In this document: positions 5,658 through 23,070 of the stretch, one piece after another
Layout: each line of letters opens with the position of its first letter
Position numbering within the stretch: position 1 is the first letter of the stretch
Origin: Fodinibius sediminis
GTDB lineage: Bacteria; Bacteroidota; Rhodothermia; Balneolales; Balneolaceae
Reading direction: 5' to 3'
Length of the DNA: 64,000 nt
Assembly (NCBI RefSeq): GCF_900182555.1
Contig: NZ_FXTH01000011.1
Coordinates: forward strand, 1-64,000
Position numbers and translations under genes: made by a program
Notes under the pieces: generated by a model
The model's input: only the letters and a program-made list of their open reading frames with translations
What the model was told of the DNA's origin: nothing
The model's database searches: none

Positions 5658-6431
5658 TCAGTCTCCAAACAGTCCCTTTTGGGTCCCTGGAATCTCGTCC
5701 AGGTCAATGGGATGGTCTACGGGCTTAATGAGCTCTTCGTCATTCTGGCCATAGTCCAAACCCTTGCTTACCTGCCACACCTCCATATCGTCTTCCGGGT
5801 AGGGGACAAAGATGTTCTGATCAAAATAATCTTCGGGGTTCAACGTCTTATCCAGCCAAAAATCATAATCCTCTTTGCGCAGGATGGTCGGCATTCGTTC
5901 TTTTGAATTATGAATTTTTCGGACCACAGGGTTTGGATCGGTGGTGATAATGGAGAAGGATCCTATGGTTTGTCCGGACTCTTTATCCACCCAGTGGTCG
6001 TACAAGCCTGCCAGCCCAAATGCCTGCTGGCTTGACAGGGTAAAGTAATAGGGGATTTTATCCGTGGGCTTCTTGCCACCCGGAATGGAAACTTCCTTGT
6101 CCAGGTGATGGTGCTCATAAAATCCGGCCACTGGTACAATACACCGCTTGCTCTTGAACAGGGGACGCCAAAGGTTGCTGCTCATGAGTTTATCATCCCG
6201 TGCATTCATGGTGCTGTATTGCAACTTTCTATCTTTAGACCAGCTTGGTATGAGTCCAAATTCATGGATGGTGACCTCCCTTTCACCATCTTCGCCCGTT
6301 TTAATAATGAAGGATGGATTAGTGGGCCGGGTATTCCTGCGGCCTTCAAAATTCTTGGGGATATTAAGCTTAGCCCCAAAAAGGTATCCGAGTTTATCAG
6401 GATGAATGTGGCTGTCAAAAAAGGTACACAT
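5658..6431 (-). CDS. SRAP (YedK/HMCES) abasic-site shielding protein
   Basis: The 257-residue product is a SOS-response-associated peptidase family protein. Members crosslink to abasic sites in single-stranded DNA through the alpha-amine of Cys2 and so protect them. Cys2 follows the initiator Met, as the family requires. Asn76 in TMNARDD, Glu106 in VAGFYEHH and His174 in KIHNSKERMP match the YedK active residues in order and spacing. The length is typical. The upstream small gene ends 6 bp before it, and the Y-family polymerase lies upstream on the same strand, so this reads as part of a DNA-damage tolerance unit. Confidence 0.93.
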   Translation of the reverse strand: MCTFFDSHIHPDKLGYLFGAKLNIPKNFEGRRNTRPTNPSFIIKTGEDGEREVTIHEFGLIPSWSKDRKLQYSTMNARDDKLMSSNLWRPLFKSKRCIVPVAGFYEHHHLDKEVSIPGGKKPTDKIPYYFTLSSQQAFGLAGLYDHWVDKESGQTIGSFSIITTDPNPVVRKIHNSKERMPTILRKEDYDFWLDKTLNPEDYFDQNIFVPYPEDDMEVWQVSKGLDYGQNDEELIKPVDHPIDLDEIPGTQKGLFGD

Positions 6432-6437
6432 AGCTAT

Positions 6438-6773
6438 TTAATTTGTTGGCCTAAAATCTTCATTATCTTCAAAAAAGTCAGCCTGACCACTGACATCGAT
6501 GTTCTTTTTTCCCTCTTCTACCGCTTTTACTATCATGACTACATAATTGGCAATAAGCCGGAGATAGTTTGCTGCAGAATAGCCTTCCTTTTTGCTTACA
6601 GCACTAAGATGCTGGATATCATGATACACGTGCGCGGAGTGGGTTACCGTCTCTGGCACTTCTGAATCGATAACGGCTTGTATTTCATGCTGAAACTGAC
6701 TCAGAAATTCAGGATGTGTTTTAGCCCGGCGATAGGCTGCAATCACTTTTGATTTTATCCTGTCCTTATCCAT
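6438..6773 (-). CDS. Hypothetical helical protein between polymerase and SRAP genes, 111 residues
   Basis: I take ATG 6771-6773 (MDKDRIKSKV) as the start. An upstream in-frame Met adds a hydrophobic, Cys-rich leader that looks like non-coding sequence. The product is mostly helical and soluble, with a His-rich middle (THSAHVYHDIQHL). I recognise no family. Its stop is 6 bp from the SRAP start, so the two are probably co-transcribed and the protein may act in the same DNA-repair setting; that is context only. Confidence 0.55.
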   Translation of the reverse strand: MDKDRIKSKVIAAYRRAKTHPEFLSQFQHEIQAVIDSEVPETVTHSAHVYHDIQHLSAVSKKEGYSAANYLRLIANYVVMIVKAVEEGKKNIDVSGQADFFEDNEDFRPTN

Positions 6774-6995
6774 GATCACCGCATGTAATTTTAATAAATG
6801 TAGCAGGAATAACGATAAGCAACAACAGGAAATACAGCTTGTCAGCATTGGTATATGGAGGCTCTGATGCACAGTGATGACTATTAGAGCCTTCTACGGT
6901 GTTATATACGTTAAAACATGGGCTGTTATGCTGGCGAATGTGGAGTATCGTATTTGGAAATAGATCGGGGGACGTGATATAAGGTTCGTTAGAGT

Positions 6996-8336
6996 TTACG
7001 AGCGTTCCAGAAAATGGGTTTTCCCTTGAACTGAGTCCATGATGGAAGCTCGGGTGATGGTTTGGTTGCCAAAAGTGTTGTTAATAGCATCCTGCACCAG
7101 GCAAAATTGTCGTTCCTGGGGGTTTTCCCGGAAGAAGAGTTCCTGCTGGTTGGAATGGTCTACCCCAACAGTACCTACGCCAATGCCCCGGAGGGCATAA
7201 CCGCTGTTCAGCAGTTGTTTCATACGTGGGGCAGCCCCCTTCATACACTCATGATGGATGTAGCCGTCCAGGTTGGTATAGCCCTCAGTATTAAACCGAA
7301 AGCTGACGCCCTTGTGCTCCCGGTGCTGGATACGAAGGTAACAGAAGTACTGCCGGGCCCGGAGGTTATATCCGCGCATCCGGTAGCAAAGCCGGGAGAT
7401 CCCTTTCATGATTTCTCCGCTAATGCAGGCGGGATCGGTGGACTGACTGCTGAAGGTGTGCATATAGTTCAGCTGCTCTTTGGGGCTCAGTTGTTCCGTG
7501 AGTACTTTGGCGCGGTCTTTCCCGGAGATCATCTCATACATGATTTTGCCAAAGTAGGCGCCAAACAGCTGCTGGAAGATGGGATAGCCCCGGTCAATGC
7601 CTTCAGATATAGTATTAAGACCTTCCTTTTGTAGTTTTTCATACCGCTTGCGGCCTATTCCCCAGACTTCATCCAAGGGCAGGGGGCCCAGCAAGTCTTT
7701 GGCTTCCTGTTGGTCCAGTACCAAGGTTAATCCATCCGGCTTGTCAAGGTCACTGGCCAGTTTGCTATAGGTTTTGGAATAGGAGATGCCAATAGAGCAT
7801 ACCAGCCCGATCTCCTGGTAGATCAGGTTACGGAGGGATTGGCCATACTGCTGAATCTCAGCGCGGGAGTGATCCTTTAGGAAATTGATGTCCAGGAAAT
7901 ACTCATCCATGGAGTATTTCTCCATTGTAGGCGCAAAATCGTTGAGCACATCCTCGATCAGGCTGCTGATTCCCTTGTACTTTTCGTAATCAGCCTGCAG
8001 GCCGATGATATACGGGCAGATCTGCTCGGCTTCATAGGCGCTCATGGCGGTCTTGATACCCAGGGCACGAGCCTCATAGGAGCTGGTAGCGACTATGCCC
8101 CGGGGAATCCCTTGTTCGCCCTTGTACCAGCCCCCAATATAGATGGGTAGGCCGTGAAGCTTGTAACACTGCTGTTCCACCTGGGCATAGAAGCAATTCA
8201 TGTCCAAATGCAGGTACAACCGCTCCTTCACAGAGGTATGCTGCATATCCCGGCTCACGCACCGGTAATCGGTGATCTTGTGTACATCTTCATCTGGGCT
8301 GTAGGTTCCGGGATTAATGGAAGGTAGTTTAGGCAT
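6996..8336 (-). CDS. Y-family translesion DNA polymerase (DinB/UmuC group)
   Basis: The 446-residue enzyme copies past damaged template bases. The palm motifs are intact: LHLDMNCFYAQVE with metal-binding Asp45, and YSMDEYFLD with Asp144 and Glu145. Further family segments follow (IGISYSKTYSKLASDLDKP, then a helix-hairpin-helix WGIGRKRYEKL). The first 35 residues before the palm are an unusual extension. The gene is divergent from a small plus-strand gene, and their 79 bp shared upstream region holds a direct repeat also found before lexA. With LexA encoded next door this recalls the umuC/lexA-type SOS arrangement. A plain dinB or umuC label would be a guess. Confidence 0.93.
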   Translation of the reverse strand: MPKLPSINPGTYSPDEDVHKITDYRCVSRDMQHTSVKERLYLHLDMNCFYAQVEQQCYKLHGLPIYIGGWYKGEQGIPRGIVATSSYEARALGIKTAMSAYEAEQICPYIIGLQADYEKYKGISSLIEDVLNDFAPTMEKYSMDEYFLDINFLKDHSRAEIQQYGQSLRNLIYQEIGLVCSIGISYSKTYSKLASDLDKPDGLTLVLDQQEAKDLLGPLPLDEVWGIGRKRYEKLQKEGLNTISEGIDRGYPIFQQLFGAYFGKIMYEMISGKDRAKVLTEQLSPKEQLNYMHTFSSQSTDPACISGEIMKGISRLCYRMRGYNLRARQYFCYLRIQHREHKGVSFRFNTEGYTNLDGYIHHECMKGAAPRMKQLLNSGYALRGIGVGTVGVDHSNQQELFFRENPQERQFCLVQDAINNTFGNQTITRASIMDSVQGKTHFLERS

Positions 8337-8415: not shown

Positions 8416-8760
8416 ATGCAAACCGTGCTCAAGGAAAAGGTGAATGTAGATGCCGTCTTCCGCTCCTTTAAAGAGGATAATACCCGTAACCGGAGTGGGT
8501 GGGAGCATAAACGCATTCAGCCCCGCTATGTCAAACGAAAGAAGGGGGAAGTACTAAAGGTCCGGGAAGTGAGAAGATCATATGTCCAGCGTAAAGGCAA
8601 GCGCGTACAGGTCCATTTTGTTATTCACTGTGAGGAGGACCGGTATTTTCATCTGGTCTATGACTCCGATAAGATTATCTGGATCCTGTTGTACGAATTT
8701 GACGACCAGATGCTCTTTGATGAGCGAAAGGTTGACGTTGACATTCAATGGAAGGGCTAG
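8416..8760 (+). CDS. Hypothetical basic protein divergent from the polymerase, 114 residues
   Basis: The product is small and strongly basic in its first 60 residues (RYVKRKKGEVLKVREVRR), then becomes a beta-rich acidic C-terminal half ending in DVDIQWKG. It could bind nucleic acid, but no known domain is recognisable. It shares a divergent control region and the candidate SOS operator with the Y-family polymerase, and its stop overlaps that of lexA by 4 bases on the opposite strand. Being boxed in by lexA and the polymerase, it is a good candidate for an uncharacterised damage-inducible protein. Confidence 0.65.
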   Translation: MQTVLKEKVNVDAVFRSFKEDNTRNRSGWEHKRIQPRYVKRKKGEVLKVREVRRSYVQRKGKRVQVHFVIHCEEDRYFHLVYDSDKIIWILLYEFDDQMLFDERKVDVDIQWKG

Positions 8761-9404
8761 GCGGATCTAAAGATTAGGCCCCAGTTGCCGCCGGTCTTCC
8801 ATGCTTTACCTACATAGGTTCCAATGACTGTGATCTCTTCCCATTCTTTCGGGGTAATGGTAATGGAATCATAGGCGGGATTCTCCGGGTGCAGGATAAC
8901 GCCACCCGAGGTACGCTCAATGGTTTTCAGGGTAGTCTCTCCACGGTAGTCAATAGCTCCAATTTCCCCATCTCCGGGAGACCGTGGATCTATGATAATG
9001 TAGTCGCCATCCCGAATGTCCGCATCTATCATACTCTCGCCATCGACAATCAAAGCAAAATAGTGATCCGACTTGGCAGGATGAATTTCTACCGGCAGGT
9101 GCCCCAGGTTCTCACTGATAGCCTCATGCATGGCTCCAGCGGTAATGCGCCCCTTTACCGGTATGCCCGGATAAAAGCCTTTGAGTTGTGAGCGCTTGGT
9201 GGGATGAATGGTATAGTTCCCCCTTCCTTCTTTGGACAGGTAATTTTTCTTTTCCAAGGCCCGCAGGTGCTGGAAGATGCTGTTGGTGGAACTGTAGTCC
9301 AGAGCCTCCTGCATGTCCCCGTAGGAAGGGAACTGGTCATGGTCTTCCAGATAGCCGAGGAGGTACTCCCAAACCCCTTGTTGTTTGTCGGTCAGTTCTT
9401 TCAT
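8757..9404 (-). CDS. lexA: LexA-type repressor with S24 self-cleavage domain
   Basis: The 215-residue protein has an N-terminal winged helix (LTDKQQGVWEYLLGYLEDHD at residues 4-23 and onward) and a C-terminal S24 peptidase fold. The Ala89-Gly90 cleavage pair in RITAGAMHE, Ser124 in GESMID and Lys160 in TTLKTIE match the LexA catalytic set, with a Ser-to-cleavage-site distance of 35 as in E. coli LexA. RecA-stimulated autocleavage would induce the neighbouring genes. The gene has its own copy of the ATGAAAA direct repeat 25 bp upstream, suggesting autoregulation. UmuD is the alternative, but the intact DNA-binding domain favours LexA. Confidence 0.92.
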   Translation of the reverse strand: MKELTDKQQGVWEYLLGYLEDHDQFPSYGDMQEALDYSSTNSIFQHLRALEKKNYLSKEGRGNYTIHPTKRSQLKGFYPGIPVKGRITAGAMHEAISENLGHLPVEIHPAKSDHYFALIVDGESMIDADIRDGDYIIIDPRSPGDGEIGAIDYRGETTLKTIERTSGGVILHPENPAYDSITITPKEWEEITVIGTYVGKAWKTGGNWGLIFRSA

Positions 9405-9845: not shown

Positions 9846-11321
9846 CTACTCATCGAGTTCATCCATAATCTGCCTGAAGCTTTCCAGTCCGGCCTCTAAG
9901 TTTTCTACAATGTCACCGGCTAATACTTCCGGTTCCGGAAGATTCTCCAAGTCAGTCAGACTATCATCCTTGATCCAGGTAATATCGAGAGAGGTCTTAT
10001 CCCGGTTGGTAACCTCCTCATAGGTGTATTTACGCCATCTGCCATCCTTGTTATCCTCTGACCATGTTTGTTCCCGCTTATGTCGTTTGCCAGGCTTATA
10101 GCACTGTACGAAAGGTTTCAAGTCCTCATAGGTCATCGGCTTTTGCTTGAGTGTGTGGTGGACATTGGTGCGGTAGTCATAGAACCATATCTCTTTGGTC
10201 TGGGCCTCCTTGGAAGCAGGTTTAGTATCGAAGAAGAGGACATTCGCCTTAACGCCATGTGCATAGAAGATACCGGTAGGCAGGCGCAGAATGGTATGCA
10301 GATCGGTGGTTTGTAAGAGCTTCTTCCTAACGGTCTCACCAGAGCCGCCTTCAAATAGGACATTATCAGGCACTACCACTGCTGCCTGACCATTATTTTT
10401 AAGCAGTGTTCGGATATGCTGCAAAAAGTTGAGCTGCTTGTTGGAGCTTGTGGTCCAGAAGTCCTGTCGGTTGTAGGTCAGCTTCTCCTTACTCTGGCTA
10501 CCATCCTCATTGGTGATGGTAATGCTGCTTTTCTTGCCAAAAGGCGGATTAGCCAGTACATAGTCAAATCGGTCTCTTGGGTCGGATATTAAACTATCTT
10601 CTCGTTCAATGGGTGGCTTGGAGGTAAGATCGCCTATGTTGTGGAGGAATAGGTTCATCAGGCACATACGCGCCGTATTAGCGACAATCTCCCACCCTTT
10701 AAAAGTATCGTACTTTAAAAATTCTTTTTGGGCCTTGTCGAGCTCGTAATTCTCTAATATGTAATCATAAGCGGCCAGGAAGAAACCTCCCGTACCACAG
10801 GCCGGGTCTCCGATTGTTTTCTCTGGTTTTGGAGCTACACACTCCACCATTGCTTTAATCAAGGGACGTGGGGTGAAGTACTGACCGGCTCCGCTTTTGG
10901 TATCTTCGGCATTCTTCTCCAATAGCCCTTCATAAATATCGCCTTTTACATCTGGGCCGAGCATGACCCAATCTTCGCTGTCAATCATCTGGATAAGCTT
11001 GTACAATTTAGCTGGATCAGTAACCTTATTTTGGGCTTTCACAAATATTTGCCCAATCATTCCTTCTTTTTGTCCCAGTTCACGTAGTAGCTTTATGTAG
11101 TGGGTCTCCAGATCGGTACCGCTTTTACTGGTCAGGCTATTCCAGTTGTACTCTTTAGGAATATGGGTTTCCCGGTTATAGGGCGGTTGACTATACTCCC
11201 AAGCCATTTTCAAGAACAGGAGATAAGTGATCTGCTCCAGGTAATCCCCGTAGCCAACCCCATCATCCCTAAGTGTATCGCAAAAATTCCAAACCTTCTG
11301 TATAATTCCGTTTGTCGTCAT
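9846..11321 (-). CDS. hsdM: Type I restriction-modification N6-adenine methyltransferase subunit
   Basis: The 491-residue protein has the HsdM N-terminal helical domain, then the SAM-binding motif DPACGTGGF at residues 172-180 and the catalytic NPPF at 258-261. It methylates adenine in the host recognition sequence as part of the M2S complex. It is the last gene of a six-gene minus-strand operon. Its ATG overlaps the stop of the preceding nuclease-like gene by 4 bases, so the two are translationally coupled. Confidence 0.95.
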   Translation of the reverse strand: MTTNGIIQKVWNFCDTLRDDGVGYGDYLEQITYLLFLKMAWEYSQPPYNRETHIPKEYNWNSLTSKSGTDLETHYIKLLRELGQKEGMIGQIFVKAQNKVTDPAKLYKLIQMIDSEDWVMLGPDVKGDIYEGLLEKNAEDTKSGAGQYFTPRPLIKAMVECVAPKPEKTIGDPACGTGGFFLAAYDYILENYELDKAQKEFLKYDTFKGWEIVANTARMCLMNLFLHNIGDLTSKPPIEREDSLISDPRDRFDYVLANPPFGKKSSITITNEDGSQSKEKLTYNRQDFWTTSSNKQLNFLQHIRTLLKNNGQAAVVVPDNVLFEGGSGETVRKKLLQTTDLHTILRLPTGIFYAHGVKANVLFFDTKPASKEAQTKEIWFYDYRTNVHHTLKQKPMTYEDLKPFVQCYKPGKRHKREQTWSEDNKDGRWRKYTYEEVTNRDKTSLDITWIKDDSLTDLENLPEPEVLAGDIVENLEAGLESFRQIMDELDE

Positions 11322-12982
11322 ATTAACTTAATACCTACTTGTTCTATAATATTTTTTCTAATTAGATCGAAGTTGATATAGCCAAATTTCAATGATAATC
11401 TTTCATTTATATGTTCTATATATTTTTTGATTTCCCTATCAGGATGAATATTTGATACTAAGTAAAGTTCATCAACCTGTTCATTATCAGGGAAGAAGTT
11501 ATAATCAATTAGCTGGCCTAACCCTACATTAAGAGAAGTTTTTAGTGAATTATAGCTCTTTACTTCAAAGATAATTTGTTTCCCTCCATGTACCATATAA
11601 ATATCAAGCTTACGACCGTCTTCAGTGGGGTGCTCTACCTCTAAAATATTTGGATTTAATCTATTATAGAGCCAGTTGCTGAATGATACCTGAATCTGAT
11701 CATGTACATTTTTAAATTCCTTTTTTTCTGTCCTTGTGCTACGAGTAATTTTGGGTTTAAAATCTTTGGGTGAATATTTTTTGTTACCACCTTTTATAGC
11801 ATATGATTTCTCATTCTTGACACTTGACAACCGGTCTCGAATTGCTTTATAACGATCAGAATTTATGGCCTGATATTCTTCCTCCTTCATTGGAACTAAT
11901 TCATCGTGTAGGCTTTCAATTTGGTCTGGACGGAACCGAACATTAAACAAAGAGGTAGGATCATCAATAAACTGATTATTTTTAACAAAAGTGTTCGGAT
12001 CTAAATCGTGCGGTATCAAATCTTTTTTTCTCTGGTCTAACCACCCCTCTGTGTCGAATCTTTCATATGCATATCTACTAATTTCTTTACCAACTATCTC
12101 AATATCATTAATAGCCCCCACCCAATACCGTTGTTTATTTATCCCATCAAATGTATAGAGTTTTACATCTCTCTTTGTGAGACTAAAAGTACTTTTACCG
12201 TTACTATGGAATGGTTGCATGAATCCGTATAAATATCCATCAAGCATCTTTGATTTATCAAAAAGCCACTCCTCAAATCCAAATCCGTACTTTCCCTCAT
12301 GGGTATCCTTATTTTTACTTTTACCTTCTCTTCCGGATGGTAATTCCCAACCATTAGTATTCCATGTTAAGCGAATAATTCTTGTATCCTTGGGCTCAAA
12401 ATAATTATTAAGTACAACCCCCTCGTAAACGGGAATTAATTTATCGAACGTCGATACTATTTCTAATAGTTGATCATCATTTAGGTTGTAATCATCTTGT
12501 TCAAAATAATTGCCAATGAAGATGAAATTACCTTCTCTAATAAATTTATCCTCAATCGGAACGACTTTTTCAAAAACTGTAGCTCCAAATTTATCCTTTT
12601 CATTTATCCAATAGGTTAAATCTTCAAAAATTGTTGGATAGTCATTTATAAACTTGTTAAATCTTTTAATTAGTTTGCCTAATTTATCTGTTGGATTTGG
12701 AATGCTTTGAGTTGCTTTTAAAGAAAATGCAACACCGTATCTCAATACATTGCGTATTCCTAAAGTTTGAATGCCTATATTAAATTGCAACTCATCCAAG
12801 CCCCCCCAGTGAAATGTATATCCATCTCTTTTAAGAGATGGAGATTTATTAAATATTTTATGGTCTCTATGTTTGTAATTTAAGCAGTGCGCACGCCTTC
12901 TTTGAAGTCCCCCAAATGGATGGAGATCATTTTGTTCTAAAATGTCTTCGATTGCTTCGGCAAGATTTATTATGGTATTCAT
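11318..12982 (-). CDS. PD-(D/E)XK nuclease-like protein inserted between hsdS and hsdM
   Basis: The 554-residue protein is not a standard Hsd subunit. Its C-terminal 130 residues carry a PD-(D/E)XK signature: Glu448/Glu450 in ILEVEH, Asp460 in KLDIYMV, Glu473 and Lys475 in IFEVKS, then GQLIDY in the position where family members often have a Gln. The first 400 residues are a large unassigned region with several aromatic-rich strands. The gene overlaps hsdM by 4 bases and follows hsdS by 4 bp, so it is integral to the operon. It may be a second restriction activity or an accessory defence nuclease. It is AT-rich compared with hsdR. Confidence 0.7.
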   Translation of the reverse strand: MNTIINLAEAIEDILEQNDLHPFGGLQRRRAHCLNYKHRDHKIFNKSPSLKRDGYTFHWGGLDELQFNIGIQTLGIRNVLRYGVAFSLKATQSIPNPTDKLGKLIKRFNKFINDYPTIFEDLTYWINEKDKFGATVFEKVVPIEDKFIREGNFIFIGNYFEQDDYNLNDDQLLEIVSTFDKLIPVYEGVVLNNYFEPKDTRIIRLTWNTNGWELPSGREGKSKNKDTHEGKYGFGFEEWLFDKSKMLDGYLYGFMQPFHSNGKSTFSLTKRDVKLYTFDGINKQRYWVGAINDIEIVGKEISRYAYERFDTEGWLDQRKKDLIPHDLDPNTFVKNNQFIDDPTSLFNVRFRPDQIESLHDELVPMKEEEYQAINSDRYKAIRDRLSSVKNEKSYAIKGGNKKYSPKDFKPKITRSTRTEKKEFKNVHDQIQVSFSNWLYNRLNPNILEVEHPTEDGRKLDIYMVHGGKQIIFEVKSYNSLKTSLNVGLGQLIDYNFFPDNEQVDELYLVSNIHPDREIKKYIEHINERLSLKFGYINFDLIRKNIIEQVGIKLI

Positions 12983-12986
12983 ATTC

Positions 12987-14417
12987 CTAACTAATTAGCT
13001 TCCCTTCAAAAGCTTTTTTGAGAATGCTTTGGCGTAGAGCTTTTGCTTTTTGAAGTTCTTGCTCAATTGTTTTTTCAGTCTGATCCACAATAGACAATCG
13101 GGAGTCAATCATATCTGCCACTTTTTTCTGCTCTTGTAAACATGTGAATGGTAATGGATAACCTGAAAGTTTTGTCCCATTTATGTTAGACTGATTAACT
13201 CCATCCGTTTTGACCTTATTACCATAATTTTGAGCTTCATAGCTATTCAGGTAGTAGGTCAAATACCGAGCATCTATTATTGTATTAATTTGATTTAACC
13301 GTATTAAATAACCAGCAAAAATTGCTTTCTTTTTTCCTTTATAAAGAGCTGTTTTCCCAACCAGTTCTGGACTATTAGTTCTATTAAACAACACATCCCC
13401 TGGCTGAAGTAAATACTTCTCAATTTCTTCTGGATCATTTGAATAGACTAAATCGTCCCATACAAACTTCCCATCTTGCATATTTCCCATTCTAAGAACT
13501 GGCATATCACCCGAATCCTCAGATTTTTGAGATGTCCCATACTCCACCCTTGAAACTGTATCACTAATCCTAATCCATTCCCAATTATTTGGTAATTTGG
13601 GTAAACTATCTAATTCTTCATCGAGAGGATCAAATGTTCTCCCTTTCATGGGTTTACGTGGCTTCTTACCGGGCTCTCCCTGTTCTTCCCACTCATCAAC
13701 TTCTTGTTCCCATTCTTTTAGTTGCTTCTGTCGATATTCTTCTTGCTCTTTTTCAATATGTCGTTTCAACTCCTCCGGGGTCGGCAAATCCTCCTGTTGC
13801 TCCCGCCACTGCTTGGTGAATTTCCCTTCAAAGGCGGCTTTGAGGACGGACTGCTTGTAGGTTTCGAGCTGCTGCTTCACTTTTTTGAGGTTTTGGATTC
13901 CGTTATCCAGGTCGGAGAAGAGTTCTTCTATTTTTTCGACGATACGGTGTTGTAATTTAAGTGGAGGAACTAAAATCTCAGTATTTTCAAATTTCTTTTT
14001 AGTCACATGGACCATTCCAGATCCATGTGACTTTGCATATAAATCCCTTATTATTCTTTTCAAATAGTGAAAAAGAAAACGATTATCGATAAAATCTCTT
14101 GGGACTACCTTAAAGATATGCTGATTTAGCCATGCGTTTCCCCCTTTCCAGATGTAAGCATCCAAAGAAGCTGACCAAGCAAATAACAGATCCCCACTCT
14201 GCACCAAATATCTATCCTTAAAATCTTTAGTAGAATAATTATAACTTGCCTCAGGATCGTTCAAATTCTGTATCCTAATTATTGGCAGTCCTTTATTCTC
14301 CCATTCTTCAGGCTTAAATGCTCTTCCATTGAGATATTCAGCTACCTCCCCCAAAGTGTATTTTTCCCATCCCTTGATCTTTTCTTCTGTAATTTCAATT
14401 GTCTCAACTTCACTCAT
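12987..14417 (-). CDS. hsdS: Type I restriction-modification specificity subunit
   Basis: The 476-residue protein has the two-fold HsdS layout. A first target-recognition domain occupies about residues 15-165, a central conserved helix near 165-215 ends in LKAAFEGKFTKQW, a charged linker covers 215-275, a second target-recognition domain lies at about 280-430, and a terminal helix ends in RQSILKKAFEGKL. The two AFEGK segments are the conserved spacer repeats. It sets the bipartite DNA target for HsdM and HsdR. The charged linker, rich in Glu, Lys and Gln, is long for the family. Confidence 0.93.
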   Translation of the reverse strand: MSEVETIEITEEKIKGWEKYTLGEVAEYLNGRAFKPEEWENKGLPIIRIQNLNDPEASYNYSTKDFKDRYLVQSGDLLFAWSASLDAYIWKGGNAWLNQHIFKVVPRDFIDNRFLFHYLKRIIRDLYAKSHGSGMVHVTKKKFENTEILVPPLKLQHRIVEKIEELFSDLDNGIQNLKKVKQQLETYKQSVLKAAFEGKFTKQWREQQEDLPTPEELKRHIEKEQEEYRQKQLKEWEQEVDEWEEQGEPGKKPRKPMKGRTFDPLDEELDSLPKLPNNWEWIRISDTVSRVEYGTSQKSEDSGDMPVLRMGNMQDGKFVWDDLVYSNDPEEIEKYLLQPGDVLFNRTNSPELVGKTALYKGKKKAIFAGYLIRLNQINTIIDARYLTYYLNSYEAQNYGNKVKTDGVNQSNINGTKLSGYPLPFTCLQEQKKVADMIDSRLSIVDQTEKTIEQELQKAKALRQSILKKAFEGKLIS

Positions 14418-14425
14418 ATTATATC

Positions 14426-15160
14426 CTATACTACTGTAAATTCTTGTGGCATATCCGGCATGGCATCATAGGTACGCCCATCCAACTCACGACCAGCCTT
14501 TTTCTTATTACGTCCACCCCATTGTTTAAAAAAGAATGGCACATCGTCTTTTTCACACTGCCGTTTAATATCTATAACCCATTCCGGCTTCATAGGCCGT
14601 GGATTGTGGCCACTTTCGCCTCCAACAATGACCCATTCTATATTATCCAGTGGCATATTAGGTAGTGGTCCTATGAGGGGCTCACAAGAAAGGAATTTAA
14701 CATGTGCTTTTGTTTTACGCAGTGTATTTATACGGTGCATCACATCTTCATTTTCGACAGATACACCCATCCAGATGTTGTCAGCCCAATCAAGGTAACC
14801 GACTTGGTCATACTCTAATAATACTTCGGGCCGCTTGGTCAATATCTGAAAAACGTGGCGCCGGTTATCATTCATAACCTTGAATACGTCCTGTATGAAC
14901 TCGACCGGAATTTTTTCATGAAATAGATCGCTCATGGAATTGACAAATACCACTCGGGACTTCTTCCAGGAATAGGGCTCATCCAGCGTATCGGGATGTG
15001 TTGTTACCTCAAACTCATTGCGGTATTTTTCTACGCCCATTGCTTTCAGGCGCTTGGCCATTACTTCTGCATAACAGAACTTACAGCCCTGAGATACCTT
15101 GTTGCACCCGGTTACGGGATTCCAAGTCATCTCGGTCCATTCAATGGATGATTGTGCCAT
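14426..15160 (-). CDS. Gp37/Gp68-type (DUF5131) three-Cys-motif protein
   Basis: The 244-residue protein starts with the SSIEWTEMTWNPVTGC signature of the phage Gp37/Gp68 family and has Cys19, Cys26 and Cys29 (C-x6-C-x2-C), the three-Cys motif that gives its partner family its name. The cluster and later VGGESG resemble a radical-SAM fold, although the spacing is not the classic C-x3-C-x2-C. The next gene upstream encodes the expected partner TcmP. Both sit between hsdR and hsdS, so they share one transcript with the restriction genes. The biochemical activity is not established. Confidence 0.85.
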   Translation of the reverse strand: MAQSSIEWTEMTWNPVTGCNKVSQGCKFCYAEVMAKRLKAMGVEKYRNEFEVTTHPDTLDEPYSWKKSRVVFVNSMSDLFHEKIPVEFIQDVFKVMNDNRRHVFQILTKRPEVLLEYDQVGYLDWADNIWMGVSVENEDVMHRINTLRKTKAHVKFLSCEPLIGPLPNMPLDNIEWVIVGGESGHNPRPMKPEWVIDIKRQCEKDDVPFFFKQWGGRNKKKAGRELDGRTYDAMPDMPQEFTVV

Positions 15161-15171
15161 GTTGCGCCTAA

Positions 15172-16281
15172 TTATACTTTATAGTTAACTATATTCTTCT
15201 TTTTGAAGACATTATCATAAGTAATACCTGGTGTTCTTCCTTCATAGTCAATTATACCGTCCTTTTTCAACATCCTTAAGTACTTATTTGCAATCTGTCG
15301 TGAATTTCCAGTTTCGTAAGTAAATTGTAAAGCCTCTTTGTTATTGGTAATTGAACCTTCAACTATTTTTTCTTCTAATTCCTTTTTGAATTTTTCAATT
15401 TTAGTCAATTTTTCATTGTCAAATAAGTCAGTTTGCCTTTTTGAAGTGTCATCATCAATGTCAAAGTTAGCTTCACCATTCTGTTTATTTTTCTTCCATG
15501 ATATATATAGGAATTTATCAACTGCGAGGGGATGACTTGCTCCAAATATTATACCGTAAATATTTGCACCCTTTTTGATTGAAAATGGATGCAGCTTTAG
15601 CTGACTGTCTAAAGACAAGCTTTCCCTTAACTTGTCAACTATAACCCGGTGAATATTTGCCCATTCTATTTCATTTAGCTCCTTTTTTGAGAATTTTAGC
15701 ACATTCTGGAATTCATCAGTCATGCCAAACCTTTTGAAATAGGATGAAGAACCAAAAAACAAAAAATCTGTGGTATTTAACTTTTCAAGTTCTGACAAAT
15801 ATTGATCTGATATAAACTTAATACCATTCTGATCCAAGAATACCAAGGATGGATAATTTTTCATTATTGGTAGTAACTCATTTAAAAGTGACCCAGCATC
15901 CTTGTTATAGAATTTAAGTTCTAAGCAATACTTAAATTTTTCATGCTCATCGACAAAATTTTTACAGTTTTCTTTAAGCATTTCAAATTTTTTTTGATCA
16001 CTTTTATTTGGCTCAAATTCATTGAGATGTAAGGTTATTTGTGTTTTTTTGTTAAGAATATTACCAAGGTGATCAACAATCTTTTTTAAAATTCGAATAG
16101 GGCTCCCAGCTATCCCATTCACATCATATCCCGGTCCGGCAAACAAATCAAAAATATGAATTTGTTGTATCCCACTCATTACAAATGGTGGTATCCAAGC
16201 TTCGGCATAATCCTCGAATATCTCTAACTTAGAAAGAGTGGCCTCATCGAAAGGCTCAAGATGCAAATCTTTATATCCCAT
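15172..16281 (-). CDS. tcmP: Three-Cys-motif partner protein TcmP
   Basis: The 369-residue protein shows the TcmP pattern: an N-terminal region with IHIFDLFAGPGYD (a SAM-methyltransferase-like motif I, about residues 42-54), then SLVFLDQNGIKF, the phenylalanine-rich FLFFGSSSYFKRF, and a C-terminal winged-helix-like domain with GNSRQIANKYLRMLKKDG. TcmP genes occur beside the three-Cys Gp37/Gp68 protein, as here. The Rossmann-type motif suggests a nucleotide or SAM cofactor. Its role in a type I restriction operon is unknown to me. It is AT-rich relative to hsdR, hinting at separate acquisition. Confidence 0.85.
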   Translation of the reverse strand: MGYKDLHLEPFDEATLSKLEIFEDYAEAWIPPFVMSGIQQIHIFDLFAGPGYDVNGIAGSPIRILKKIVDHLGNILNKKTQITLHLNEFEPNKSDQKKFEMLKENCKNFVDEHEKFKYCLELKFYNKDAGSLLNELLPIMKNYPSLVFLDQNGIKFISDQYLSELEKLNTTDFLFFGSSSYFKRFGMTDEFQNVLKFSKKELNEIEWANIHRVIVDKLRESLSLDSQLKLHPFSIKKGANIYGIIFGASHPLAVDKFLYISWKKNKQNGEANFDIDDDTSKRQTDLFDNEKLTKIEKFKKELEEKIVEGSITNNKEALQFTYETGNSRQIANKYLRMLKKDGIIDYEGRTPGITYDNVFKKKNIVNYKV

Positions 16282-16345
16282 TAAGGTTTCTCCTGATATT
16301 TAATTAAGGCCGGTGACAACACTATGACATCCCCTATTGTGCATT

Positions 16346-19090
16346 TTAAGCCACCAACTCTTCATTCATCTCTTCAATAATTTCATCCATCTCATCCCCA
16401 AAGACTTTATACATCCCCCCGATGCCTCCCTTGGCATCAAACGGGGCATAGTCCAGATCATCCCTAGTGAAGTGTATGGAAGTAGCGATATGATCCTTGA
16501 TCATGTGCAGCCATTCCATCTGCTCTTCATTGAATTTCAGGGCACCGGCCTGTTTATCGAAGACCCATTCCTGGAAGTTCCGGTTTACCGTGGAATCAAA
16601 CGGTCGGAGCTCCTCATCCAGTCCACACACCTTTCGGATCAAGGCCACCAAAGCCGTTAATTCCGATTTTGGATTTCTGCCTTCATACTTCTCCAGCTGG
16701 GAATAGCCCTGCCAAACATGCATCGGTGCCAGATTGGGTTTTTCCTGCCGGATCTTGTCGGCCAGTTCCTTTATCATCTGGTAGGTAACCTCTTTCAACC
16801 GATGGGGCTGATCGTAAAAGATGGATAAGGCTGTAATTTCATCCTTATGCTCTTTGATATAGGCCTTAAAATCTTCAACAAGTGTTTCAGACTGCTGTTT
16901 CTGTTCTTTGTCCCACCCAGCGTAGGTGACCTCATCAATATTGACCACATCAAGAATCTGCTCGTGGGTCTTCTTCGCCTGGTCCAGAAACTCAATCAGT
17001 TCCCCCGTAAAATTGGAGGCGGCCTTCTCCCGTAACTTTCTCTTTGCCGCTTCCTCATCCCCTCCGGTTCCTCCTTCTTCCTGCGGCTTACCGGCCAATT
17101 CCTGGACTTTATCGGGATTGGTTGCATCCAGCAACTCGTTGGTAACAGTGTTAATGGATTTCCCGGTCACCTCCTTGAAATGCTCTTTCTCTCTGCCATC
17201 AAGCAGTTTATTTAGTCGTGCCAGGCGATTGGCTGCCGAATCAAAAAAGTCTTCGTCCGCACTGCCCATCATAATGTGATGCAATAGATCCTTAAAAGGA
17301 ACAGTGCGGTTTCGCTCTAAGGGACGGCTGTCGGTTTTCAGACTCTTGGTAACCCCAACCGCATCCACAACCACAAAATGGGTCTTATCCGTTTTTGCGG
17401 AGGGCGTGACCTTTTCCAGATCCTCTTTCTGCAGGGTACGGGTACCCCTTCCTTTCATCTGTTCAAAGTAATTCCGGCTCTTCACATCCCGCATGAACAT
17501 CAGACACTCAATGGGTTTCACGTCGGTACCGGTAGCAATCATATCCACCGTTACGGCAATGCGGGGATAAAATTCATTGCGGAACTGTTGCAATACCGAT
17601 TTGGGATCTTCTTCGGTCTTATAGGTCACCTTTTTACAAAAATCATTGCCCTCGGCAAACTCTTCACGGACCGTTTTAATAATATCATCACAATGACTGT
17701 CCGTCTTGGCAAAAATCAGTGTTTTGGGCACTTCCTCCCGATGCGGGAAAATAGTCGGTAGGCTGTCTCGATATGTTTTAATGATATTGCGGATCTGGCT
17801 GGGATTGACGACATCTTTATCCAGCTGTTTGGCCGTATAATCCACATCTTCATCCAACTGCTCCCAACGCTTCTTGCGGGTGAGCTTCTCCCGCTTCTCA
17901 ACATACTCCTTTGCCTTAATTTCCTTGCCATTCTTGGAAATCTCCGTTTCAATCGTAAAGACATCGTACCCAACGTTCACACCATCTGCTACAGCCTGCT
18001 CGTGTTTATATTCGCTGACCACGTTCTCTTTGAAATACCCATAGGTGCGCTTATCCGGGGTGGCAGTCAGCCCCACCTGAAAGGCGTCAAAATAGTCTAA
18101 TACTTGCTTCCATAAATTATAGATAGAGCGATGGCACTCATCTATAACGATGAAATCGAAGAACTCAATCGGTACCTCTTCATTGTACTCAACCGGAACC
18201 GGTTCCTTCGGCTGGTACTGCTCGTTGGGATTCTCTTCCTCACTACTTTCTTCCAGCTCATCTCCCTGCAGGATGGAGTACATTCGTTGTATGGTGCTGA
18301 TACATACCTTGCTATCAGGTGCGATGTAGCTGGACCGCAGTAATTGAACTGGATAGATCTCGGTGAACTTTCGATTTTCCCCGGTGGGCGTATACTTCAT
18401 AAACTCCTGTTCGGCCTGTTCCCCCAGGTTTTTGGTATCCACCAGAAAGAGAATGCGCTTGGCATCGGCATGTTTCAGCAAGCGGTAAATCGAGGTAATG
18501 GCCGTAAACGTCTTACCAGCACCGGTAGCCATCTGAATCAAAGCACGTGGCCGACCCTCCTTAAAGGATTGCTCCAGATTTCTAATCGCACTGATCTGGC
18601 AATCCCGCAGGCCTTTGGTTTGAAGGTCCGGAATCTCCTGTAGGCGGGCTCTTAGTGTCTTGTCCTTTTCCATCCATCCCTGCAACGTTTCCGGGCGGTG
18701 AAAGGAAAATACTTCACGGGACCTCGGTTTGGGGTCTCTTAAGTCGGTAAATCGGGTTATTTCCCCATTGCTTTCATAAATGAAGGGGAGGGATGCTTGT
18801 CCAATATACTGTAGATCGCTTGCCGAATACCGGTTAGACTGAGCCTCAGCCTGTAGAAGTCGGTGTCCTTCTTCCTCTCGTTTTGCTTCTATAATGGCTG
18901 CGGGTCGTTTTTGTACAAAAGAAATGTAATCTGCAGGACCGGAGTCGGTATGGTACTCACGGATAGTGACCCCATCTGATACAGAAAAATCTATGCTTTC
19001 CTTATTTTGAATATCCCAACCTGACTGTTTAAGTCTCTCATCAATTTTTTTTCTGGCCTCTTGTTCAGGCGTAAGGTTATTACTACTCAT
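16346..19090 (-). CDS. hsdR: Type I restriction endonuclease subunit with SF2 motor
   Basis: The 914-residue protein is the first gene of the operon. The N-terminal nuclease domain has Asp54 and Glu68-x-Lys70 in AIIEAKR with a downstream Gln-rich helix (AEAQSNRYS). The SF2 motor has Walker A in MATGAGKTFTA near residue 190, a DECH box in VIDECHRS near 320, motif III GLTATP and motif VI in MKGRGTRTL. The C-terminal third fits the EcoEI-type HsdR end that docks on the methyltransferase. It translocates and cuts unmodified DNA. All motifs are intact, so the system looks functional. Confidence 0.94.
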   Translation of the reverse strand: MSSNNLTPEQEARKKIDERLKQSGWDIQNKESIDFSVSDGVTIREYHTDSGPADYISFVQKRPAAIIEAKREEEGHRLLQAEAQSNRYSASDLQYIGQASLPFIYESNGEITRFTDLRDPKPRSREVFSFHRPETLQGWMEKDKTLRARLQEIPDLQTKGLRDCQISAIRNLEQSFKEGRPRALIQMATGAGKTFTAITSIYRLLKHADAKRILFLVDTKNLGEQAEQEFMKYTPTGENRKFTEIYPVQLLRSSYIAPDSKVCISTIQRMYSILQGDELEESSEEENPNEQYQPKEPVPVEYNEEVPIEFFDFIVIDECHRSIYNLWKQVLDYFDAFQVGLTATPDKRTYGYFKENVVSEYKHEQAVADGVNVGYDVFTIETEISKNGKEIKAKEYVEKREKLTRKKRWEQLDEDVDYTAKQLDKDVVNPSQIRNIIKTYRDSLPTIFPHREEVPKTLIFAKTDSHCDDIIKTVREEFAEGNDFCKKVTYKTEEDPKSVLQQFRNEFYPRIAVTVDMIATGTDVKPIECLMFMRDVKSRNYFEQMKGRGTRTLQKEDLEKVTPSAKTDKTHFVVVDAVGVTKSLKTDSRPLERNRTVPFKDLLHHIMMGSADEDFFDSAANRLARLNKLLDGREKEHFKEVTGKSINTVTNELLDATNPDKVQELAGKPQEEGGTGGDEEAAKRKLREKAASNFTGELIEFLDQAKKTHEQILDVVNIDEVTYAGWDKEQKQQSETLVEDFKAYIKEHKDEITALSIFYDQPHRLKEVTYQMIKELADKIRQEKPNLAPMHVWQGYSQLEKYEGRNPKSELTALVALIRKVCGLDEELRPFDSTVNRNFQEWVFDKQAGALKFNEEQMEWLHMIKDHIATSIHFTRDDLDYAPFDAKGGIGGMYKVFGDEMDEIIEEMNEELVA

Positions 19091-21171: not shown

Positions 21172-23070
21172 ATGGTTAGGGGTTGTGCAATTGTCATACT
21201 GTTAGTGTCATTGATGGGAGGCGTTCCCGACAGGGGAGGTGCGCAATTCAGCCTGGACCGCGACAGCTTGCGGATTCTGCTGGATGAATCCAGCGGCAAA
21301 GAGCGGCTGACCCTGCTTCATCAATTGAGTGAACGGCTGCAGCAGTCAAGTCTGGATTCTGCCCTGGGGTATGCCAATGAGGCGCTGATTCTTGCCCAGG
21401 ATATGGAGTCACCGTCCCTTCGGGCCGAAAGTCATTGGCGACTGGGTCGGCTGTTATCCCGAAGCGGCGCCCATACCGAAGCCCTGTCCCATTTGCTGGA
21501 GGCAAAAAGGACGTTTGAGCAGCTTGGAGACCTGGCCAGCGAGGCGGCTGCACTTGGTAGTCTGGGAGCCTTGTACCGGCGCCAAAGCAATTACAATACT
21601 GCCCTCGAACACTTTTTTAGTTCCCTGAACTTGTGGGAACAAGTTGAAAATGTTCGGGGAGCGGCAAATATCCTTCACCAGATTGGGATTGTCAATGAAC
21701 GGATGGGACAATTATCGCAGGCTGCTACTTTTTATGAGAGAGCTTTACGCCTGAGTGAAGATATCCGGGATTTCAGTGATATGGCGGTCAATGCCACCCA
21801 GCTGGGCAGGGTATATGGAGAACTCGGAGAAAACGAGAAAGCTTTTGAACTGATGAGACGGGCACTGGATGCCTCGGAGCATTTGCCGGGTAAACATGCT
21901 ACGGCATCCATTTTACTGGAGCTGAGTGCGTTATATGAAGAAAAGCAGGCCTATGATGATGCCATCATGGCAAATCGCCAGGCACTGGCGCTGGCTGATT
22001 CAATGGAAAACCCTGTATTGAAGTCACTGAGTTTGCAAAATATAGCTGCCGTATCTGCCGAGATGGGAGCCTATAAGGAAGCAAATGAACACTTGCAGCG
22101 GGCACTTTGGCTGCTCGAAACAACAGGTGTTAAGCAGGAATATATCAAGGTGTTGAACCGAATGGCCCGCAACTTTCTCCATTTGGATCTACTGGCAGAA
22201 GCTGTGGATGCGGCTGAACGGGCGCTGGATGAAGCTATGGCGATGAAGGCGTATGAATTGAGCCAGCAGTCTCTGTTTATCTTAACGGAAGCTTACGAGC
22301 GGGAAGGAGATTTCGAGCAGGCACTGGATACCCAGAAACGTCTTAATGCCATCAAAGACAGTATCTTTGACCGGGAACAAGCCCGGCAGATAGCCAACAT
22401 GCAGGCGCGATACGAAATGGACCAGAAACAACAGGAGATTGCCCTTCTGGAGGAGCAACAAAGTCGGGCAGAGCTGGTTCGCAATGTCTCTATGGGGGGA
22501 GTCGTTCTGATAGTGGTTATAGGATTCCTGATTTATAACCGGCAGCGTCTCAAGATAAAGAAGAACAAAGCAGAACTTGAAAATACACAACTGAAAGAAC
22601 AACAGCTCGAGAAGGATCTGGCCTACAAAAACAAGCAGCTGACCAGTCATTCACTTCATCTGGTGCAAAAGAATGAAGCCATGAAGGAATTAATGGATAA
22701 TATTGACCGGCTCAGTCAGAGCCGGGGAGGAACATTGAGTCATGAGCTGCAGGAGCTGAGAAACCTGGTAGATTACAGCTTTAACCTTGATGAGGATTGG
22801 GAACAGTTCCGGCTCTATTTTGAAGAGGTTCATTCCGGTTTTTTCAATATTCTAAAAGAGCGGTATCCCGATCTTACCCCCAATGAACTACGCCTTTCGG
22901 CCCTGGCCAAATTGAACCTTTCTATCAAAGAGACGGCTACCATTATGGGCATAACACCCAACAGCGTGAAGACCGCCCGTTATCGGTTGCGCAAGAAACT
23001 TAATATGGATACCAGCGAAAATCTCAATGAATTTATGATGGCTGTCGAAAAAACGGCCAGCGACCGATAG
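21172..23070 (+). CDS. TPR-transmembrane-HTH regulator
   Basis: The 632-residue protein has an N-terminal signal-like segment (residues 1-24), about eight to nine tetratricopeptide repeats over residues 50-400, a coiled coil, one transmembrane helix at about 443-463 (GGVVLIVVIGFLIYN), a second coiled coil, and a C-terminal LuxR-like helix-turn-helix with LRLSALAKLNLSIKETATIM near 580-600. This is a common Bacteroidota/Balneolota architecture in which periplasmic TPRs sense something and the cytoplasmic HTH acts on DNA. The ligand and target are unknown. It is followed by mddA-like and crystallin-like genes on the same strand after a 271 bp gap. Confidence 0.85.
   Translation: MVRGCAIVILLVSLMGGVPDRGGAQFSLDRDSLRILLDESSGKERLTLLHQLSERLQQSSLDSALGYANEALILAQDMESPSLRAESHWRLGRLLSRSGAHTEALSHLLEAKRTFEQLGDLASEAAALGSLGALYRRQSNYNTALEHFFSSLNLWEQVENVRGAANILHQIGIVNERMGQLSQAATFYERALRLSEDIRDFSDMAVNATQLGRVYGELGENEKAFELMRRALDASEHLPGKHATASILLELSALYEEKQAYDDAIMANRQALALADSMENPVLKSLSLQNIAAVSAEMGAYKEANEHLQRALWLLETTGVKQEYIKVLNRMARNFLHLDLLAEAVDAAERALDEAMAMKAYELSQQSLFILTEAYEREGDFEQALDTQKRLNAIKDSIFDREQARQIANMQARYEMDQKQQEIALLEEQQSRAELVRNVSMGGVVLIVVIGFLIYNRQRLKIKKNKAELENTQLKEQQLEKDLAYKNKQLTSHSLHLVQKNEAMKELMDNIDRLSQSRGGTLSHELQELRNLVDYSFNLDEDWEQFRLYFEEVHSGFFNILKERYPDLTPNELRLSALAKLNLSIKETATIMGITPNSVKTARYRLRKKLNMDTSENLNEFMMAVEKTASDR

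Follow-up and report, generated by a model that had tools for sequence, protein, structure and literature searches.

We analysed a 64,000-nucleotide stretch at the start of contig NZ_FXTH01000011.1 of Fodinibius sediminis (the window, G000:C11), part of a 4.43-Mb assembly of 50 contigs, and focused on a minus-strand run of six genes at positions 9846-19090. In gene order, the run reads hsdR, tcmP, a gene for a three-cysteine DUF5131 protein, hsdS, the gene for a protein here called P0005, and hsdM (Table 1). All six open reading frames (ORFs) extend intact from ATG to stop, the successive intergenic gaps are 64, 11, 8 and 4 bp, and the final pair, P0005 and hsdM, overlaps by 4 bp. A sequence-only reading had described six closely packed genes in this order and had named each of them; layout and names were both confirmed, the latter, apart from P0005 (see below), by Pfam matches and by the matches of P0002 to TIGR04474 (tcm_partner; 106.1 bits, above the cut-off of 53) and of P0003 to PF07505 (DUF5131; 333.2 bits, above the gathering cut-off of 28.9).

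HsdR, HsdM and HsdS are encoded together and all three have Pfam matches, which is the gene set of type I restriction-modification. On these matches the operon is a type I restriction-modification system, with sequence-specific methylation and ATP-dependent restriction as its predicted activities.

Table 1. Genes and exchanged segments of the operon (positions in the window)
Feature	Position	Strand	Details
hsdR (P0001), type I restriction translocase/nuclease subunit	16346-19090	-	914 aa; HSDR_N, ResIII, EcoEI_R_C
tcmP (P0002), predicted class I S-adenosylmethionine (SAM) methyltransferase with C-terminal winged helix; PDC-M30A; slot 1 cargo	15172-16281	-	369 aa
DUF5131 (P0003; Gp37/Gp68, three-Cys), probable iron-sulfur (Fe-S) / radical-SAM-like enzyme; PDC-M30B; slot 1 cargo	14426-15160	-	244 aa
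hsdS (P0004), DNA specificity subunit, two target-recognition stretches	12987-14417	-	476 aa; Methylase_S twice
P0005, uncatalogued modular predicted nuclease; slot 2 cargo	11318-12982	-	554 aa
hsdM (P0006), N6-adenine methyltransferase subunit	9846-11321	-	491 aa; N6_Mtase 238 bits, HsdM_N 51.8 bits
Slot 1 (between hsdR and hsdS), exchanged tcmP-DUF5131 cassette	14426-16281	-	BLASTN against related operons
Slot 2 (between hsdS and hsdM), exchanged P0005 cassette	11322-12986	-	BLASTN against related operons

A conserved restriction frame with two exchanged slots

Related operons were collected by an HsdM search of 395 genomes from the phylum of the window and counted at an HsdM identity of at least 50%; those with the hsdR end, hsdS and hsdM on one contig were called complete (n = 28); hsdR is represented by its end alone in L186, L217 and L218, and hsdM by its start alone in L217 and L218 (L-numbers denote loci and G-numbers genomes). 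The window, L119, L039 and L079 were found by other routes and stand outside the 28, and L069 is counted once, as L189, which has the same layout. Also left out were the loci in which the hsdR end or hsdS was not found by this rule (L171, L175, L178, L180, L185, L193-L196, L199 and L219), of which L175 nonetheless looks complete and cargo-free; L203-L205 fall outside the HsdM count.

All 28 complete relatives have the order hsdR-[slot 1]-hsdS-[slot 2]-hsdM. Slot 1 is closed (less than 50 bp) in six of them and slot 2 in ten, and slot 1 holds DUF5131 in 11, with a TcmP-labelled ORF alongside in nine (split in L183) and no ORF labelled as TcmP beside DUF5131 in L187 and L192. The order hsdR-tcmP-DUF5131-hsdS-hsdM thus recurs in related operons and is more than chance, and the possibility that the gene order is unique to this genome was rejected for the frame plus DUF5131. 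Among the loci read, no second operon combined this order with P0005, and the window alone has a full-length P0005-type nuclease and the pair in one operon.

The boundaries of the slots are sharp at the DNA level. The HsdM of the window is 90% identical to that of two operons from the same genus, and BLASTN against the same-genus loci L169 (G007) and L119 (G011) aligned hsdR at 73-74% and hsdM at 76-79% DNA identity, together with short stretches of hsdS; the homology stops within about 10 bases of the hsdR end and the hsdM start. No DNA homology was found by BLASTN in slot 1 (hsdR end to hsdS) against L119 and L169, nor in slot 2 (hsdS end to hsdM start) against L119, L169, L122 and L123, and the hsdS homology to the same-genus operons is limited to positions 13954-13643 plus, in L119, 13074-12992. 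Over 26 operons, identities correlated with r = 0.91 for HsdR-HsdM and 0.67 for HsdS-HsdM. On a 35-row HsdM tree (16 rows with DUF5131, 19 without), in which L039 and L079 had been chosen for having DUF5131, its presence required at least 7 changes against a shuffled mean of about 12; since the changes are fewer than in the shuffles, DUF5131 presence appears to be inherited for a while and then changed. Moreover, the genome G459 has a pair of operons of this kind, each truncated at a contig end, whose cargo differs. The comparisons show that hsdR and hsdM form a conserved frame and that slots 1 and 2 are replaced wholesale between related operons.

Cargo other than that of the window was checked for a chosen part of 80 slot ORFs. 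In L039 slot 2 is occupied by Septu PtuA/PtuB and in L079 by PDC-M62A/B together with DRT2. Slot 1 holds PDC-M68A/B in L191 (the contig of its L185 relative lacks hsdR), a protein weakly resembling Ppl in L218 and SoFic (375 bits) in the same-genus L169; L217 has PDC-S60 in slot 1 and a HEC-06-type GmrSD in slot 2. Pfam Fic proteins account for 10 clustered cargo ORFs, some on incomplete operons, nine of them counted beyond the SoFic of L169. Other slots contain transposase-like (by eye) or unassigned ORFs. Slot 1 of L119 carries a 451-aa gene (5980-7335 of that locus) without Pfam, PADLOC or PHROG match, another uncatalogued cargo. Signs of decay were seen in near kin, with tcmP as two ORFs in L183, DUF5131 shortened to 148-150 aa in L187 (150 aa) and L193, and both genes absent from L188.

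The TcmP-DUF5131 pair in slot 1

With PADLOC (PADLOC-DB 2.0.0), P0002 matched PDC-M30A (470 bits) and P0003, encoded by the adjacent ORF, matched PDC-M30B (417 bits) and also PDC-M41B (423 bits), so that by these profiles the pair is already catalogued as the phage-defence candidate PDC-M30. Like the window pair, PDC-M30 consists of two adjacent genes matching both models; the window pair lies within a restriction operon and differs in sharing it with an extra, uncatalogued nuclease. As described in the available part of the source, PDC entries are candidates found by 'guilt-by-embedding', and PDC-M30 was predicted in 32 of 100 Pseudomonas aeruginosa strains, 68.8% of those 32 being phage-resistant (PMC10855318). 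No functional study of TcmP or DUF5131 was found in the literature searched, and terms for either protein were looked for in a BREX survey and were not present; a TcmP gene is grouped with hna in an expression table for Sinorhizobium, in the portion of that paper available (PMC12445080). A defence role, which the sequence-only reading had argued from the setting of the pair, is probable by association.

To place the pair in other genomes, we used the best 80 of at least 584 stretches confirmed in a P0003 scan of genome contigs (the 80 DUF5131 loci); the nearest named relative among the matches listed is from a Balneolaceae metagenome-assembled genome, at 77%. TcmP lies immediately upstream of DUF5131 in 75 of the 80 loci, one of the five exceptions being cut by a contig end. 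A same-strand hsd gene of any kind occurs within 6 kb of DUF5131 in 11 loci and at least two kinds in seven (L038, L039, L047, L069, L079, L101 and L102), numbers that are lower bounds because profiles made from relatives of the window could miss divergent hsd genes. The flanks are shorter than 6 kb in 32 loci, and 44 of the 48 with full 6-kb flanks are without any same-strand hsd gene. The four TcmPs closest to P0002 are those of L121 (62%), L057 and L044 (both 56%) and L063 (47%); blastp with the Hsd subunits of the window found no match in these four loci, and in L063 a single ORF, on the opposite strand, carries a weak HsdM label. Together, these data indicate that TcmP-DUF5131 is not bound to restriction operons. 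The earlier view of the pair as locked into restriction is not supported, and a dependence of the pair on restriction was rejected, as it mostly occurs without hsd neighbours.

DUF5131 is present in 161 phage records, whereas a P0002 search of the phage records gave no match. In Gordonia phage Jablanski (L235, 3483-5352), the only one of the 161 that was opened, DUF5131 and a TIGR04474 TcmP are convergent and sit between the integrase and immunity repressor genes of this temperate phage.

The AlphaFold model of P0002 has a mean predicted local distance difference test score (pLDDT) of 88.7. In a structural second look against the Protein Data Bank (PDB), RlmJ, the 23S rRNA m6A2030 methyltransferase, was the closest solved fold (Z 15.6, root-mean-square deviation 3.3 Å over 203 aa); RlmJ-family rows scored Z 14.8-15.6, the next family 13.0 and Trm1 rows 12.3-12.8, and the best E-values of Foldseek itself went to GRAS-domain and O-methyltransferase chains, which share this fold in its broad outline. 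Across 26 aligned TcmPs, K18, D45, F47, G49, G51, P61 and D150 are invariant, and in the model DxFxGxG follows the strand 40-45 and D150 the strand 145-149, as in class I methyltransferases. Of 89 distinct TcmP ORFs with at least 220 aa, 83 have the DxFxGxG motif, and a simple motif IV pattern was found in only 33 of those 83. A GMT-wHTH domain was matched at residues 274-349 of P0002 with 24.1 bits, under the 27-bit cut-off, and 23 of the 26 TcmPs matched this GMT-like winged helix at E<=1. The TcmP model is thus that of a class I methyltransferase, with RlmJ as its nearest match, to which a winged helix is added. RlmJ catalysis requires K18 and D164, according to the available text of its source (PMC3814359), and K18 and D150 of TcmP would correspond to these two residues, an equivalence drawn without residue-level superposition. 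TcmP differs from RlmJ in its motif IV (DPPY at 164 in RlmJ, DQNG in P0002), in its winged helix and in its DUF5131 partner, and hhalign gave no sequence-profile link between the two (probability 0.43%); TcmP as a member of the RlmJ family was therefore rejected in spite of the similar fold. No real match came from PDB sequence searches with P0002, P0003, P0005 and the alignments A2 and A3.

All 80 DUF5131 relatives contain the three-Cys motif CX6CX2C. The canonical cluster motif of radical SAM enzymes is CX3CX2C, from which the DUF5131 motif departs, and P0003 matched TIGR04471 (rSAM_mob_pairA) with 84.7 bits, below its cut-off of 355. We therefore treat the radical-SAM likeness of DUF5131 as a working resemblance only, and presume DUF5131 to be a putative Fe-S enzyme.

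The two partners differ greatly in conservation. Over 72 pairs, median identity was 67% for DUF5131 and 19% for TcmP (r = 0.12), in a set picked for similar DUF5131 proteins, so that the range of DUF5131 identity is truncated. When three TcmP types (T1-T3) were placed on the DUF5131 tree, at least 21 changes were required, against a possible minimum of 2 and a shuffled mean of 31, and TcmP type is therefore still partly clustered; the starred branches of the tree are enough to require 9, 11 and 5 changes for T1-T3, with 26 of 69 inner branches open. As judged from these comparisons, one TcmP type replaces another while DUF5131 is conserved, and TcmP looks more freely exchanged than HsdS. An instance of such partner exchange is the comparison of L122 (G028) with L123 (G066), from one bacterial family, whose DUF5131 proteins are 92% identical and whose adjacent TcmPs are 21% identical.

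The slot 2 protein P0005

P0005 is composed of an N-domain (residues ~1-195), a central domain with the motif WNTNGW..PSG..GKS (~205-360) and a C-terminal PD-(D/E)XK domain (~417-554; D460, E473 and K475). In an eight-row alignment (A1), the columns of E473 and K475 are invariant and D460 is D in the seven rows besides L012; the L012 row is an HNH protein, whose agreement at E473 and K475 is an alignment artefact. Residues ~417-554 matched the folds of XisH (Z 10.6), Can2 (9.6), McrC (9.5) and LmuA (8.3), and also Card1, and the D...(D/E)xK residues lie within the matching fold, as in PD-(D/E)XK nucleases, with catalysis predicted. The claim of a 554-residue PD-(D/E)XK protein was thus upheld by the residues in the alignments of relatives and by the fold. 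Residues 2-195 matched DUF1054 proteins (2a8e, Z 10.4; 3mqz, Z 8.2), and the other domains of XisH, Can2, Card1, McrC and LmuA showed no match to the N-terminal and central parts of P0005. Foldseek alone found nothing for the P0005 model at E<=0.001.

No match to P0005 was found in Pfam and NCBIfam at E<=1 and no PHROG family was assigned, and PADLOC returned LmuA alone, weakly (E 0.074, 9.8 bits over 54 residues). By these searches P0005 represents an uncatalogued family; its identification as GmrSD (DUF262 plus DUF1524) or another catalogued defence protein was rejected, as these searches gave no real hit. A search of 50,697 phage records found no P0005 match at E<=0.01, and none was confirmed in viral contigs, and P0005 as a phage gene was likewise rejected.

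Relatives of P0005 were found in 4 of 195 genomes with the single sequence, in 10 of 395 and 6 of 244 with a profile (the genome sets overlap and each includes the source genome itself), and in 6 of 72,556 plasmid records. In slot 2 of L119 lies a 532-aa relative (26% identity), with a slot 1 gene different from that of the window, and slot 2 of L217 has a 181-aa protein related to the N-domain (31%), with the GmrSD gene after it; in L217 (4694-7221, G459:C50) this stand-alone N-domain relative stands directly upstream of GmrSD and is possibly its recognition partner. L117, L118, L220 and L221 have P0005 relatives with no labelled hsd gene alongside. The domains occur in different combinations: N-domain with nuclease in L013, L014 and L210, central domain with nuclease in L117, L137 and L209, central domain with HNH_2 in L012, a different N-terminus in L118 and L119, and all three together in P0005. 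In L014, the Vibrio plasmid p1ST2, the P0005-family gene is flanked by ~120-bp repeats, which we take to be attC sites, and a 28-nt repeat end recurs 13 times between genes; given these recurring repeats, the gene is an integron cassette. This cassette gene (L014, 2350-3372) adjoins a TIR-domain gene.

Outside the operon, an SOS-like pair lies downstream of hsdM on the minus strand, namely a LexA/S24 peptidase protein (8757-9404) and a Y-family (ImpB/MucB/SamB) polymerase (6996-8336), and the plus strand encodes at 21172-23070 a 632-aa tetratricopeptide-repeat (TPR) protein whose end resembles sigma-70 region 4 (25.8 bits, against a cut-off of 25.7).

Defence cargo or composite system

We consider the operon to be probably a carrier of interchangeable, independent and complementary defence cargo rather than one new machine. 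This reading is favoured because TgvAB and DarTG2 set precedents for genes embedded in type I operons. As reported in the available parts of the sources, TgvAB is embedded in the type I operon of the Vibrio cholerae island VPI-2 (Vibrio pathogenicity island 2) and restricts modified-DNA phages without HsdR activity (PMC11411939), and DarTG2 is located between hsdS and hsdR in the type I operon of the RptR island of enteropathogenic Escherichia coli (EPEC) (PMC12255303). TgvAB resembles the present case in that additional defence genes lie within a type I operon, but TgvAB is GmrSD-like (DUF262/DUF1524), while P0005 is PD-(D/E)XK-like and without Pfam match; GmrSD does occupy slot 2 of L217. 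DarTG2 resembles it as cargo in the hsdS-hsdR slot and differs as a toxin-antitoxin pair with its own repressor, in the same partial source (PMC12255303). Likewise, rloA/rloB lie inside a restriction region of Campylobacter jejuni (PMC2928727) and RloF between hsdR and hsdS (PMC11411939), both as given in the sections available; these rlo genes occupy the same kind of slot, and RloF is a DUF262 protein, unlike the cargo of the window. In architecture, the operon is a variant of type I operons already known to carry embedded defence genes and does not amount to a demonstrated new composite.

Under the cargo reading, the slot genes would work independently of HsdRMS and complement it, and would owe to the operon their expression and their transfer as a group. 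HsdRMS itself would methylate and restrict DNA according to its sequence. P0005, which we lean towards regarding as a restriction nuclease, would act as a single chain in which the N-terminal and central domains select DNA and the PD-(D/E)XK domain cleaves it; its target would most likely be DNA resistant to the type I enzyme, such as modified phage DNA, and P0005 could, by analogy, be modification-dependent, a view we hold only tentatively. For TcmP-DUF5131, a two-step modification of nucleic acid is conceivable, at somewhat less than even chances: the RlmJ-like, winged-helix TcmP would pick the target and add a methyl group, and DUF5131, as a presumed Fe-S enzyme, would perform a shared second step. 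Both the substrate of the pair and the recognition target of P0005 are inferred.

Several observations weigh against this reading. The tight packing of the genes is also compatible with functional coupling to HsdRMS. With DUF5131 in 161 phage records, the pair could serve phage interests. Motif IV is DQNG in the P0002 clade and DP[FYW] in other TcmPs, and catalysis in this clade may therefore be altered or lost. The P0005 model is of middling quality (pLDDT 61.3, predicted template modelling score 0.37), whole-model fold searches listed nothing for its central domain, and in the searches made none of its domains matched a known modified-base reader, which leaves modification dependence as an analogy. 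Furthermore, P0005-type cargo is rare (one of the 28 operons in the HsdM draw, L217, plus L119 found via P0005), and many slot ORFs are unassigned.

An integrated six-gene composite, in which HsdS-HsdM might for instance recruit P0005 as an additional nuclease and TcmP might change the methyl mark, would fit the one-direction packing with its 4- to 64-bp gaps and one overlap, and the P0005-family members in the same slot of L119 and L217. However, the slots vary independently, as in L119, where a P0005 relative is joined by another slot 1 gene; among the 28 relatives, 11 have DUF5131, one (L217) a P0005 relative and none both; and the pair and P0005 relatives both occur elsewhere without hsd genes. 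We regard such a composite as improbable. What the sequence-only reading had put forward as an undescribed composite thus survives in its nuclease, which is uncatalogued and has distant relatives in the same slot of L119 and L217, and not in its unity, as slot contents differ independently and the pair is already PDC-M30. That the pair mostly occurs without hsd genes or P0005 also speaks against a role in self-marking, in which the pair would protect the DNA of the host by a hypermodification that serves as a second self-mark, and DNA without it would be cut by P0005 or HsdR. The SAM methyltransferase fold and winged helix of the TcmP model, the DUF5131 cysteines kept in all 80 relatives and the type I context would suit that role, but the nearest fold to TcmP, RlmJ, acts on rRNA, as stated in the available text of PMC3814359, and we give self-marking little credence.

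The same fold raises the alternative that the pair modifies RNA (tRNA, rRNA or mRNA) and confers translation-level defence or resistance to nuclease toxins. RlmJ heads the structural list with Trm1 also on it, and the invariant K18 and D150 resemble the catalytic residues of RlmJ, with the reservation made above on their equivalence; yet a fold does not show its substrate, the DPPY of RlmJ is DQNG here and no sequence-profile link to RlmJ was found; RNA modification seems unlikely, though not remote. Finally, the inserted genes could be mobile passengers, selfish or decaying, for which the restriction operon is a safe landing site without benefit to defence. The transposase-like and unassigned slot ORFs, the presence of DUF5131 in phages and the decay-like cases L183, L187, L193 and L188 are in line with passengers, but catalogued defence genes are found in the slots repeatedly, and the catalytic-type residues of P0005 relatives and the cysteines of DUF5131 are conserved; we hold only a slim expectation of it.

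A further reading, which we hold to be unlikely, is that TcmP-DUF5131 forms a modular system of nucleic-acid hypermodification, in which exchangeable RlmJ-like winged-helix methyltransferases pick the targets of one conserved Fe-S enzyme, in the way that HsdS subunits are exchanged under HsdM, and that P0005 is the first of a new family of restriction nucleases, single-chain and domain-shuffled, that trade via the same slots. With defence genes recurring in both of its slots, the restriction frame is a tractable system that could serve as a bait for finding new ones, and P0005 is a flag for an uncatalogued nuclease family. The obscure TcmP/DUF5131 pair gains a concrete, testable chemistry and a pattern, the swapping of partners under a conserved enzyme.

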